A stretch of 41,243 bases of DNA from a virus, in IMG/VR virus record IMGVR_UViG_3300044639_000300, positions 1 to 41,243 of that record, one strand, 5' to 3'. Shown piece by piece: positions 31,414-41,243 of the stretch. The notes under the pieces were generated by a model. That model saw only the letters and a list, made by a program, of their open reading frames with translations. It was not told the origin of the DNA and did not search any database. A program made the translations under genes and the position numbers. Position 1 is the first letter of the stretch, and each line of letters starts with the position of its first letter.

Positions 31414-31758
31414 CCTTGTCTCCTTAGGGTTCTTAATGATTCATAATGGTTGAATAAGGCTTATCTTCAATCAGTATCAAGAGAAATTGTTAAAGCCTTT
31501 TTCCTGATCCTTAGATGATATTTTAAGCAAGGATATTCTCTCCCCAAGAGGGAAGATTTCAAGATTGATAGAAAGAAATATGCAGTTGTATTTCTTACGT
31601 CTAACCCTGGAGCACCCTTAGGTTTCATTATGTTTTCTTAAGGGCAACTAGTGCCCAGCTCTTACATAATGTCGGTATGTATGGTGAAACTTGGACGGTT
31701 TGGGGCACATCCGTATATGACCATACCGAGACATTGACTGTGGCACAGTATTGGAAAG

Positions 31759-31767
31759 TGTGTCAAA
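31759..31767 (-). repeat. TTTGACACA repeat, candidate integrase arm site (left)
   Basis: One of three copies of this 9-mer within 200 bases around the tRNA fragment; this copy is inverted relative to the other two. The match with the copy at 31935 extends to TTTGACACAC. Arm-type sites flanking a core, in opposite orientation, are usual for tyrosine integrases. Confidence 0.55.
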
Positions 31768-31768
31768 C

Positions 31769-31804
31769 CGCAGGGGACAGGGGTAATCTTAGGGTTCCCC
31801 TGCG
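31769..31804. repeat. 8-bp inverted repeat beside attP
   Basis: CGCAGGGG (31769-31776) and CCCCTGCG (31797-31804) are perfect arms with a 20-base spacer, 30 bases from the tRNA fragment. There is no T-run on either side, so it is a weak intrinsic terminator at best. It may be a binding site for integrase, an excision factor or a host bending protein. Confidence 0.6.
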
Positions 31805-31834
31805 ATCATTGACCAAAGCGATAGTCTCGCGAAG

Positions 31835-31876
31835 GGATTTTGAGTCCGCTGCGTCTGCCAGTTCCGCCACACCGGC
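31835..31876 (-). other. Putative attP core: 5' half of a tRNA-Leu(CAA)
   Basis: Read on the minus strand, these 42 bases begin GCCGGTGTGGCGGAACTGGC and contain the acceptor 5' strand, the D-arm (GGCAGACGC) and the anticodon loop CTCAAAA (anticodon CAA). The tRNA then stops: the anticodon stem fails to close properly (GCGGA against TCCCT), and no T-arm or acceptor 3' strand follows. It is therefore not a working tRNA gene. It lies just downstream of the integrase, as does the tRNA-Leu-matching segment reported for cyanophage P-SSP7, and most likely pairs with a host tRNA-Leu gene during integration. Confidence 0.85.
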
Positions 31877-31934
31877 TTCTCAATGCACTTTTTATTGGTG
31901 CCTCTGTGCCAATCGTGTGCCCGAAGGACACCTT

Positions 31935-31960
31935 TTTGACACACATTTGACACAGTGTCA
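31935..31960 (+). repeat. Two TTTGACACA repeats, candidate integrase arm sites (right)
   Basis: Copies at 31935-31943 and 31946-31954 are 11 bases apart, about one helical turn. The second is part of a 13-base palindrome, TGACACAGTGTCA (31948-31960). A third, inverted copy lies across the tRNA core at 31759-31767. Confidence 0.6.
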
Positions 31961-32093
31961 CCGCAGCTACACGCCGGATAGTCCATCCGCTTGTAGATGC
32001 CACTGTTGTCACACTCGTAAAGCTCCAAGGGGTGCATCGAACCGCCAAGGATACACACCCAGGCGAAAGACAACAACCCCTCCGCTTGGCAGA

Positions 32094-33089: not shown

Positions 33090-33461
33090 TTAAGAACCTT
33101 CCGATTGATTGATTTGCAGGGCAATGGTCTTGCCCTTGGTAGTTAGGAATAGCAATACTTGTCGCCGGTCAGCGGGATCTTCTTCAGGACGAATGAGGTC
33201 GAGACCCCAACGCCCTGCTCTCCCTGGGCGAACTAAGTTCTTCCCGAGGAGCGAGACATTGCGTGAGACCGTAGATGTTGAAACACCCATGGCCTCTCCG
33301 ATGTCAGCCATGCACAGCGGCTTCCCCCTGAGGTTCGACTCGGCAATGAGGCAGAAGATCGCGGTTGCCAGCACCGGGATATCTTCGTTCTGCGTCCTCA
33401 TCAACGCACAATTGCTCAGGAACTTCTTGATCGCTTGGGTATTGTTGACTTTCGTTGACAT
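33090..33461 (-). CDS. MarR-family winged-helix regulator, candidate lysogeny regulator
   Basis: A 123-aa protein from the ATG at 33461 (MSTKVNNTQAIKKFLSNCAL). The winged helix-turn-helix is clear: CMADIGEAMGVSTSTVSRNVSLLGKNLV is the DNA-reading helix region, and DRRQVLLFLTTKGKTIA is the wing and following helix with the conserved MarR Asp-Arg-Arg and Leu-Thr. The N- and C-terminal helices would form the dimer. It is co-transcribed with integrase and lies under a strong promoter whose -10 is 8 bases from this ATG. There is no CI-like repressor elsewhere, so it is the best candidate for lysogeny control. Confidence 0.85.
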   Translation of the reverse strand: MSTKVNNTQAIKKFLSNCALMRTQNEDIPVLATAIFCLIAESNLRGKPLCMADIGEAMGVSTSTVSRNVSLLGKNLVRPGRAGRWGLDLIRPEEDPADRRQVLLFLTTKGKTIALQINQSEGS

Positions 33462-33468
33462 GGTCACC

Positions 33469-33497
33469 ATTATCCTGTGCGCGGGAACTGCCGTCAA
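33469..33497 (-). promoter_or_regulatory. Strong sigma70-like promoter of the MarR-integrase operon
   Basis: On the minus strand TTGACG (33497-33492), a 17-base spacer and GATAAT (33474-33469) match the host consensus at 5 of 6 positions in both boxes. A start site about 7 bases on would be at or next to the ATG at 33461, giving a leaderless or almost leaderless mRNA. Confidence 0.7.
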
Positions 33498-36510: not shown

Positions 36511-36863
36511 ATTCCCGCCGGTGCTACCAACGATGCCTGGGGAGGTGTGCTACCAACGATGCCCCGCCATGCGTCCCGATGCCCTACGCGGGATCCATTA
36601 TCCGATGCGGAGCGTGGATGCCTAGCGGATTCGCTTAGGTGTGCCCCGATGCCCTGCCCTTTACCCTTCCATAGTCGCGCGTGATGGCGTGCGTGCGCGT
36701 ATTCGGGCGGGCGGGCGCGTGCGCGGGCGCGAGGCCACCGGCACGGGGGGGAACGCCCCGGGCTCCTTGCGATACACCTCTTCAGACTTTTTCGCCAAAC
36801 ATTTGGGTTCCCCTTGGTTCCCCTAAGAGCCCCTAAGAGCCCCTAAGAGCCCCTAAAGAGCCC
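36511..36863. other. Non-coding repeat region with GC-rich block
   Basis: I find no gene on either strand. The 17-base sequence GTGCTACCAACGATGCC occurs twice (36521-36537 and 36547-36563), and CGATGCC recurs near 36577 and 36648. From about 36690 to 36770 the base composition becomes extremely GC-rich (GCGGGCGGGCGCGTGCGCGG-like). The short tandem array begins at 36820. Confidence 0.6.
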
Positions 36864-36874
36864 CTAAGAGCCCC
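36820..36874. repeat. Tandem array of a 10-bp CCCCTAAGAG unit
   Basis: Five consecutive units of CCCCTAAGAG lie on the plus strand, one with an extra A (CCCCTAAAGAG). The array overlaps the stop codon of the metallopeptidase-like gene. Spacing of one helical turn suggests a protein-binding array. The CCTAAAG-like core recalls the SRL/SRR repeats of T7. Confidence 0.85.
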
Positions 36875-37160
36875 TTCGATACCCCAACCTCCAAAGTGCC
36901 TCGGAGACCCCTAAGGACCCCTCAGCAATCGCTGACTCCACAAGATCTGGATAGGCAGCATGGAGGAGCTCGTGGACGAGGGTGTCTAGTTCATCCTGAG
37001 GCTTCTGCCCCAGGGCTATCCTAATGACTCCTTGGGTGTAGTCACACTGCCCTGCGGAGTCCCCAAGGTTCGGTACGAACCTAAGAGCCCATTTCTTCCC
37101 CCTGACCCGAAGAGTCTTAACGGTCCTCCTCGGACTCCGAGCAGGGTCTCCGCTAGTCAT
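36864..37160 (-). CDS. Small HExxH metallopeptidase-like protein
   Basis: A 98-aa protein. The motif TLVHELLHAAYPDL (about residues 59-72) carries HExxH, the zinc-binding signature, followed by a helix with acidic residues (VESAIAEGSLGVSEALWRLG). Before it is a basic strand region (KTLRVRGKKWALRFVPNLGD). Similar small phage and bacterial proteins have the same VHExLHA and LWRLGYR blocks. No signal peptide is seen, so it would act in the cytoplasm, perhaps on a host protein early in infection; that is inference. The ribosome-binding site is GAGGA, 8 bases upstream. Its stop lies inside the 10-bp repeat array. Confidence 0.7.
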   Translation of the reverse strand: MTSGDPARSPRRTVKTLRVRGKKWALRFVPNLGDSAGQCDYTQGVIRIALGQKPQDELDTLVHELLHAAYPDLVESAIAEGSLGVSEALWRLGYRRGS

Positions 37161-37882
37161 CCTTTAGTCCTCTTAGGTTGCCTCAGGTTCCTCGGATCAT
37201 CATCATCAGCATTCTGATGTGACTTCCATAGGTTCCCTGACAGGAGCTTCTTTAGGTACCCTGGTTCAGCATCATCAGCATTCTGATTTGAGCACCTTAG
37301 GTACCCTTAGGAACCTTAGGTCAGCATCATCAGTTTCCTGACAGTACCCCCTCTAGGAGCCTCAGAACGCCATATTTCTTTCCCTAAGGAAAGCGTGTGA
37401 CCCGGCCCCCAAGTTGCCTTAGAGTCTCCTTATCCCTCCCTAGTGGTCTTCATCCTACGGATGTATGCACTAGTACCTGTTTACCTATCTACTTCCCAGT
37501 CCTAGCTTCTTTGGAGGATGATGATGTCATACCTACAGGATCTAGACTATCTGACCTTAGGGTGGTTGCAGAGGAACAGACACCACTGTCTGGCTCTACT
37601 CACCCCGGGTGGTTGCAGTATGGTTCTAACCTGACCATACGCAGGGGCAGAAACGAAAGTCAGTATCTCCATAGGTCACCGAGGGGGATTCCCACTACCC
37701 CCATGGCCGCTGAACGGCATCTTAAGGAACTTAGATCATCGGTAGCGTATGGACGCTGTGTAGACACAGTATTGACAGCAAGGCTCCTAGGTTCCCCCAG
37801 GATCGATTCTTCCCCTTTGGGCGACCTCTGACCCACCCGAAGGGTTAAAAGGGCACCTGGGGCAACCTAGGAGGTTTAGTCC
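37161..37882. other. Non-coding repeat-rich region, candidate genome-end region
   Basis: No convincing gene is present in these 722 bases. On the minus strand CCTAAGG/CCTAAAG-type heptamers recur, mostly as GGTACCTAAGG or GGAACCTAAGG, at about 37170-37320. Small hairpins ATCAGcattCTGAT lie at 37205-37218 and 37274-37287, with a related TCAG/CTGA one at 37330-37341. A 12-bp direct repeat GGGTGGTTGCAG is at 37560-37571 and 37607-37618, and a CTGTGTAGACACAG palindrome at 37756-37769. It lies between the last late gene and the first early gene, where T7 has its terminal repeats, early promoters and SRL/SRR arrays. Confidence 0.65.
37205..37341. repeat. Three imperfect CATCATCAG hairpin repeats
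   Basis: Each copy has CATCATCAG followed by a short loop and CTGA(T). Copies one and two are 69 bases apart and copies two and three about 55 apart, each separated by TTAGGTxCC-type motifs. The regular alternation suggests an iterated binding region rather than chance. Confidence 0.7.
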
Positions 37883-39732: not shown

Positions 39733-41243
39733 TTAGGGAGCCGTTAAGGCGTTAAGTTGCGCTGCCGTCAACGCTGTTGGGAAGAACTTTATTTTTCTAA
39801 TAGTTGCATCAGCATAACTTTGACTAGGGACTGATCCACCAGAAACCCCTGTGCCGCCAATGCAGAATAGATTGTTTGTCAAAGGCAGTGCGATAGTTGA
39901 AGCAGTGTTCAATGCTGAGTTAGTTCCGTTGATGGAAACCATGTTGTCTGCATCTGGCGCAGGAGTACCAGCAGACAAAGCCACGGCTGCTTTAATGAGA
40001 AACGGCGCAGACAGTGCGCTGTAGTTAGTTATGTTGTCCGAACCCCAGTTGAAAGAAAGCCAGTTAGTTCCGATGGCTTGGTACAGCATAAAATCTTTGG
40101 TGGCTGTTCCTTCTGTACCAAATAACGCACCCGCAAAGTTAACTGCTGCGTTACCTGAGAACCGCTTAGTGGCTTCAACAAAGAAGGTTCCCTGCGTTGC
40201 ATTCTTCAACCATGACAACGAACCAGTTAGCGTGGTGTCGTACATACTGCAATTGTCCGCATTCCGCGTGACCTGACTCGCACCCGTAGGGATGTAGGAG
40301 GATGCGCCGGAGCCAGCCTCTAGTTGTGCGCCCCAAATGTAAATGCTCTTGCTTGCATCACCTGCAAACAATGCTTGAGCGTACACATTGAAGGTAATAG
40401 CCCCATCATTCACAACCATGAAGTGGGGATACAAAGTGGTATCAGCAGTAGTCATTGTCACAGAACACCGATACCAACCATTTGTCCCTATTGCGGTAAT
40501 TGCATAACTAGTTCCAGTAGGTGCTGGCGAGGCTGTGCTAGAAGCCTCCTGAAATGAGCCGCTACCTGTCAGATTAAATACTGCCGTGTACCTTCCACCA
40601 GCAGCAATACAAACGCCTATGCGGTTGTACCCATTTGCCTTAGCGTAGATGCTAAGGGTGTACGAAGTCGCGTTTGCTACACCAACGGTGGAGTAGATCA
40701 GATGCGGTGATGTTCCTGCATCAGATGTCAACTTTATAGCGTTTGCAGTGTTTGATGGATCATTCGATGATCCTGTTCCTAACGTACTACCTTGAATCGT
40801 GTATGTCGATGACGAAAACGTAGATGAGTTAAGCGCAAGATTGATCGACTGCCCCTCAATCAGTAGTCCCCTAGGCTCCCCAATGTTCGTAGGGCTGTAG
40901 TCGAACCGAGGGGCGTGATAGGCGGTTGTAGTTGTTGGGTAGTAAGTTTGAGCAGTGGAGCCGGGGTTTATCTGCAAGCCCCAAATGGCAACGCCTTGGG
41001 CTACAACACCAGTAAAATTTAAGCCTGTGGGGTCTGTTGATGTTGAAGAAGTCATGAACACATATACACTTGCAATTGCGGTATAAGTTCCCGTAAGTGT
41101 GATTCGATACCAACCATCATCAGTTACCTTAGTAATTGTCGCTGCTCGGTTTGGCGCAGTTCCACCAACTGCCCCTATCACACTCCCAGCACCAACTAAA
41201 CTAAAGATTACAGTAGCAGCCACATATCCAGTTGCGTTAATAC
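39733..41243 (-). CDS. Tail/adhesin-like structural protein, C-terminal part (starts at 584)
   Basis: Residues ~153-655 of a 655-aa protein beginning at 584 across the circular join (the repeat is counted in both parts). It contains a carbohydrate-binding-like jelly-roll module ending IYIWGAQLEAGSGASSYIPT (about residues 450-470), common in phage tail proteins. An earlier, weaker copy ends VAIWGLQINPGSTAQTYYPT, indicating an internal duplication. PRFDYSPTNIGEPRGLLIEG links the two. The C-terminal ~170 residues (SLSWLKNATQGTFFVEATKR) look like a laminin-G/concanavalin-type lectin domain. A receptor- or polysaccharide-binding role is likely; it lies directly after the large terminase. Confidence 0.85.
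   Translation of the reverse strand, partial: INATGYVAATVIFSLVGAGSVIGAVGGTAPNRAATITKVTDDGWYRITLTGTYTAIASVYVFMTSSTSTDPTGLNFTGVVAQGVAIWGLQINPGSTAQTYYPTTTTAYHAPRFDYSPTNIGEPRGLLIEGQSINLALNSSTFSSSTYTIQGSTLGTGSSNDPSNTANAIKLTSDAGTSPHLIYSTVGVANATSYTLSIYAKANGYNRIGVCIAAGGRYTAVFNLTGSGSFQEASSTASPAPTGTSYAITAIGTNGWYRCSVTMTTADTTLYPHFMVVNDGAITFNVYAQALFAGDASKSIYIWGAQLEAGSGASSYIPTGASQVTRNADNCSMYDTTLTGSLSWLKNATQGTFFVEATKRFSGNAAVNFAGALFGTEGTATKDFMLYQAIGTNWLSFNWGSDNITNYSALSAPFLIKAAVALSAGTPAPDADNMVSINGTNSALNTASTIALPLTNNLFCIGGTGVSGGSVPSQSYADATIRKIKFFPTALTAAQLNALTAP
41117..41243. repeat. Terminal direct repeat, copy 2 (assembly closure)
   Basis: This is an exact copy of bases 1-127. Joining the two ends restores one 655-codon reading frame, from the ATG at 584-582 through base 1 (= 41117) down to the stop at 39733. 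Confidence 0.95.

Follow-up and report, generated by a model that had tools for sequence, protein, structure and literature searches.

A tRNA-Leu(CAA) 5' half as the probable attachment site of an integrase-bearing, T7-like virus with a predicted host among freshwater Phycisphaerae

What does the first half of a tRNA-Leu gene do between the integrase and the RNA polymerase of a T7-like virus, and which host does it point to? These questions arise from the window, i.e., the whole 41,243-nt stretch of the IMG/VR record IMGVR_UViG_3300044639_000300 from an environmental metagenome, which looks like a complete T7-like genome. Its two ends carry an exact terminal repeat of 127 nt (positions 1-127 and 41117-41243), the length of which suggests that k-mers overlapped when a circular or terminally redundant genome was assembled. 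All assigned genes lie on the minus strand, including a capsid gene and the genes that mark the Autographiviridae (T7-like phages), i.e., a single-subunit RNA polymerase (RNAP), a T7 helicase-primase, a family A DNA polymerase, a T7-type portal, and a terminase, and protein identity to the nearest catalogued relatives is only ~30-47%. The features at the locus are collected in Table 1. The alignment of the integrase identified R195, K218, H275, R278, H301, and Y310 as conserved residues, and the catalytic residues R195, H275, R278, H301, and Y310 line up with those of nine other integrases. The adjoining regulator belongs to a family (phrog_9665) common to all the phages tested for it, namely P-SSP7, LUZ100, HTVC200P, HTVC019P, and RHEph21.

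Table 1. Features of the window at and around the tRNA half.
Feature	Position	Strand	Evidence or remarks
attP core (probable), tRNA-Leu(CAA) 5' half (bases 1-42)	31835..31876	-	identical in five Phycisphaerae tRNA-Leu(CAA) genes; same sequence in two viral relatives
Putative 7-nt overlap, anticodon loop CTCAAAA	31838-31844		
Putative arm-type site TTTGACACA, P side, integrase-proximal	31935..31943	+	three copies in the window, flanking the core
Putative arm-type site TTTGACACA, second P-side copy	31946..31954	+	kept in L007, L012, L016
Putative arm-type site TTTGACACA, P' side, inverted	31759..31767	-	kept in relatives
Strong hairpin, 9-bp perfect stem within a 12-bp predicted helix	31769..31804	-	~30 nt past the core, before RNAP
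Unproven 82-aa ORF, in frame through the core	31789..32037	-	found within the phage group only
Tyrosine integrase, 331 aa	32094..33089	-	PF00589, E=1.8e-26; phrog_1 integrase
MarR-like transcriptional regulator, adjoins integrase	33090..33497	-	phrog_9665, E=1.4e-18
T7-type single-subunit RNA polymerase, 804 aa	28999..31413	-	PF00940 and PF14700

Read on the minus strand, the core is GCCGGTGTGGCGGAACTGGCAGACGCAGCGGACTCAAAATCC (42 nt) and extends from base 1 of the tRNA to three bases beyond the anticodon loop CTCAAAA (anticodon CAA). It begins 217 nt past the integrase stop and ends 421 nt ahead of the RNAP start, all three elements being on the same strand, and neither ARAGORN nor Rfam found a complete tRNA in the window. 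A preliminary description of this DNA had recognized here a 42-base 5' half of tRNA-Leu(CAA) that stops abruptly between integrase and RNAP, and had proposed it as an attP; the sequence, its truncation, and its placement are as described, and the proposal gains support from full-length exact matches in bacterial genomes, in which the stretch shared with the phage comprises exactly tRNA bases 1 to 42. These observations agree with what characterizes tRNA-Leu 5'-half attP sites in T7-like phages: an exact match of ~39-46 nt (here 42 of 42), a position between integrase and RNAP, and an integrase with intact catalytic residues.

In an exact 42-mer scan of 84,980 bacterial and archaeal species, the core was present in only five genomes, all of them Planctomycetota MAG records from one freshwater Phycisphaerae genus. 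Since only these five species, all of one genus, carry it, chance is excluded by far as the source of an exact tRNA match of this length, and infection of this genus is predicted. The tRNA-Leu(CAA) gene is intact in the four copies that are fully contained in their contigs, while the fifth runs past a contig end, and each genome has a single copy of the core site even when up to 3 mismatches are allowed. Among the 14 genomes of the genus that were sampled, five match exactly, three differ by one base, and two by two bases; the difference shared by these congeners is C33 to T (gene base 33), which lies in the anticodon loop. In one of the genomes (L002), the tRNA gene starts 14 nt past the guaB stop, and guaB ends at the same position in the other genomes checked; with this spacing, the host tRNA is probably co-transcribed with guaB. 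The virus thus probably infects this Phycisphaerae genus and inserts into its tRNA-Leu(CAA) gene while keeping the tRNA intact, as judged from the sequence. The G+C contents (53% in the phage, 58-60% in host contigs) are only compatible with this assignment. No exact 42-nt match was found in any scanned cyanobacterium, and a cyanobacterial host was rejected.

The virus is linked to this host by a single locus, with no support from CRISPR spacers or shared genes: a search for spacers gave nothing convincing in the genomes examined, and the genomes of the host genus have no phage matches other than their tRNA-Leu genes and one weak 52-base match (E=5e-4) in one congener. The preliminary description had also suggested that exact matching could lead to the host and to prophage junctions. 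The former was borne out by the five full 42-nt bacterial matches; as to the latter, the host genomes and viral contigs examined yielded neither an occupied attB nor an attL or attR: all five attB sites are empty, and all core copies in viral contigs are attP. As regards stable lysogeny, for which a repressor and prophages in host genomes would speak, the phage has a MarR-like regulator, and the genomes of the host genus and family yielded no prophage, with neither phage DNA nor the RNAP found in them (181 host-family genomes were searched for a T7-type RNAP, in a search that had no positive control). Integrase matches in the host family are mostly weak and consistent with XerC/D. One exception is an integrase 38-40% identical to that of the window over ~210 residues (L041:1084-2235), which ends ~15 nt from a tRNA-Lys(CTT) gene. 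As far as we found, Planctomycetota would be a new host phylum for this kind of T7-like phage. The phages of this phylum are little known (one of them, Phage-ZRK32, is chronic and extrachromosomal), and the core provides a genus-level host prediction for a T7-like virus with only distant catalogued relatives.

We consider it likely that the 42 bases are the working attP core of an integrase-bearing T7-like podovirus that infects this freshwater Phycisphaerae genus. In attB, the anticodon arm has the sequence GCGGA-CTCAAAA-TCCGC, in which a 5-bp inverted repeat encloses 7 nt; attP retains the left arm, the loop, and TCC. An inverted repeat around 7 nt is the usual shape of a tyrosine-recombinase core. 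Most likely, the integrase would join phage and host DNA within the 7-nt anticodon loop of the single host tRNA-Leu(CAA) gene behind guaB; we infer the exact crossover from the symmetry of the stem and from general knowledge of such cores. Since the phage brings along all of the tRNA up to the crossover, starting at base 1, attR would hold a complete tRNA and attL only the half of the host, so that a single-copy host gene would survive integration through the 5' half supplied by the phage. When built in silico from the left side of the phage and the right side of the host, attR indeed yields a complete tRNA-Leu(CAA) by ARAGORN, and neither the reciprocal attL nor attP does. The core boundary at base 1 would follow from the need to code for the tRNA and not from recombination alone, which suggests that the ~40-nt length and base-1 start of such attP cores are set by the distance from the tRNA start to the crossover rather than by what recombination needs. 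Integration by this phage is predicted from its sequence, and the rebuilt tRNA at attR would presumably be transcribed from the regulator-integrase side of the phage.

The sequences flanking the core are consistent with an attachment site. The 9-mer TTTGACACA occurs three times in 41 kb, with all copies within 196 bp around the core and in both orientations, and the only other 9-mers clustered to this degree belong to the tandem array at 36.8 kb and to a repeat near 37.2 kb; the three copies are putative arm-type sites of the integrase. On the RNAP side, the strong hairpin has a predicted energy of -19.7 kcal/mol and lacks a U-tract, and the terminator scan did not call it; it is a possible insulator or operator. 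One of its stem pairs is broken in L012. A sigma-70 scan of the interval between integrase and core found no sigma-70-like promoter that would drive the rebuilt tRNA.

This kind of attP is already known from P-SSP7 and other integrase-bearing T7-like cyanophages. For two close functional analogues, S-TIP37 and P-SSP7, Shitrit et al. reported integration at tRNA-Leu, attP motifs that correspond to its first half, and, in S-TIP37, a requirement for both int and attP, while stable lysogens of the two phages were not found (PMC8776855). The parallel with P-SSP7 drawn in the preliminary description is well founded, as P-SSP7 (a Prochlorococcus phage; Autographiviridae, Tiamatvirus) has the same co-oriented order of regulator, integrase, tRNA-Leu 5' half, and RNAP, its regulator is of the same phrog_9665 family, and the attP of P-SSP7 and S-TIP37 likewise span 39-42 nt and end in or just beyond the anticodon loop. 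In contrast to the window, the anticodon loop of P-SSP7 is CTTAAAA, i.e., that of a UAA isoacceptor, its host is cyanobacterial, and its integrase is 25% identical to ours. Among T7-like phages of Proteobacteria, HTVC019P, HTVC200P, LUZ100, RHEph01/21, and Limnohabitans phage YIMV22061 also have a regulator or small gene, the integrase, and RNAP adjacent to one another; their integrases are 27-32% identical to that of the window where aligned, and their portals up to 47%. Pelagiphages, rhizobiophages, and LUZ100 share this gene set, but several of them carry a whole tRNA-Leu in opposite orientation rather than a co-oriented 5' half. In uv-Fonsiphage-EPL, a tRNA of the phage itself reportedly takes the place of the one lost by the host (PMC6811365), and the LUZ100 regulator was proposed to control RNAP (PMC10134795).

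The cyanophages also offer a clue to how the core may be insulated. By consensus matching of promoters and terminators, P-SSP7 has, ~20 nt upstream of its tRNA half, a promoter that matches 10 of 12 positions (TTGTTA-16-TATAAT, extended -10) and, within ~45 nt downstream of that half, a terminator-like hairpin (region L059:5813-5963), whereas the window has neither by the same scan. P-SSP2 and P-SSP3, which are identical here, have both elements, and in SS120-1 and S-CBP3 a terminator follows the core. Overall, a terminator stands just after the tRNA half in four different cyanophage sequences, and a TATAAT promoter before it in three records (two sequences), so that cyanophage attP often looks like a promoter, half tRNA, and terminator in succession. 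After integration of a cyanophage, transcription of the rebuilt tRNA at attR would start from the phage promoter, and transcripts from the orphaned host promoter at attL would end at the phage terminator before they reach RNAP. The cyanophage pattern suggests a core framed by a phage promoter and terminator, of which the window shows only a hairpin without a U-tract. The presence of terminators and promoters around the cyanophage tRNA half, together with the hairpin at the same place in the window, supports a designed insulation, although by analogy with T4 in LUZ100 the cyanophage terminator may equally serve the int operon. The pattern bears on why such cyanophages integrate without forming stable lysogens, and we see the main value of the finding in the host assignment and in this idea of insulation. 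Integration itself might even act as a transcription switch, which we regard as rather unlikely: before integration, RNAP lies downstream of the early block, the regulator, and the integrase on one strand, and a crossover at attP would move it to the opposite end of the prophage, where host guaB and a half tRNA precede it, leaving the regulator and integrase to transcribe the rebuilt tRNA.

Several other explanations need to be weighed against a working attP. It is possible, if doubtful, that the tRNA half is a relic or serves a rare dead-end integration and that the phage is in practice lytic, as no prophage or junction was seen in the genomes and contigs examined, S-TIP37 and P-SSP7 integrate rarely, with no lysogens found (PMC8776855), and the record is complete and terminally redundant, as expected of free phage DNA. 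Yet the core is identical to the host sequence, the integrase is intact, and the core is unchanged across three phage genomes that differ by ~6% on the RNAP side. It is improbable, somewhat more so than the foregoing, that the attP is correctly recognized but belongs to another, unsampled bacterium that shares the 5' half of tRNA-Leu(CAA). tRNA 5' halves are conserved, other Phycisphaerae are only one base off (T at gene base 33), and such matches were considered to give only broad taxonomy by Mizuno et al. (PMC3861242); against this, all exact matches among the 84,980 species fall in one genus, and the base that sets even congeners apart falls in the putative 7-nt overlap, so that recombination with their gene should be impaired.

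We give little credence to a further reading, in which the core lies within a small protein gene and integration would swap the C-terminus of its product; a precedent for an attP inside an ORF is mycobacteriophage BPs with its integration-dependent immunity (PMC4557955). The 82-aa frame is open through the core, encodes several Cys, and would stay open into host DNA at attR, gaining a different tail, and the interval between integrase and core is less variable (4/217) than that between core and RNAP (24/421). However, no homologues were found outside this phage group, the length of the open frame is ordinary (68 of 500 shuffles), the substitutions comprise 2 synonymous and 3 amino-acid changing ones, and in BPs the attP lies inside the repressor gene, whereas the regulator of the window is upstream of int and not over attP. 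Open frames across tRNA genes are, moreover, a common annotation artefact. Hardly credible at all is a role of the fragment as RNA, i.e., as a tRNA-half decoy or regulator instead of a recombination site: an RNA could be made, given that the fragment is on the strand of the surrounding genes, but the fold of the isolated core is no better than that of shuffled sequences (z 0.02), and its ends match the tRNA start and anticodon arm, with an integrase and arm-like repeats adjoining, all of which an attP explains.

Two further viral contigs, ~95-97% identical to the window over the shared parts, have the same core, arms, and gene order. Among the three phage genomes, the core has 0/42 changes; because the integrase side is itself conserved, core conservation alone is weak evidence. 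In a different virus, IMGVR_UViG_3300037515_000929 (L073), the integrase is likewise followed directly by a co-stranded, incomplete 42-nt tRNA-Leu(CAA) 5' half (L073:1029-1070), which exactly matches other Phycisphaerae genomes (e.g., L035-L040). It differs from the window in its core variant and integrase (22% identical over the alignment), and tblastn found none of the RNAP, DNA polymerase, portal, and terminase of the window in the 9.6 kb examined. Complete planctomycete-type tRNA-Leu(CAA) genes are present in two other viral contigs (L072:41-129 and L074:1207-1290), in the latter beside an integrase. As these copies are probably provirus edges, the planctomycete tRNA-Leu(CAA) may be a repeated integration site.

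Other repeats occur elsewhere in the window. The early region has several tandem copies of the 10-nt unit CCCCTAAGAG (36810-36891), possibly protein-binding sites or an end or origin signal, and three imperfect copies of the 35-nt repeat TTAGGTACCCTGGTTCAGCATCATCAGCATTCTGA lie at 37183-37341. Ahead of RNAP, an AT-rich segment (31452-31650; 30-42% G+C) with imperfect inverted repeats is a candidate operator region for the MarR-like regulator.
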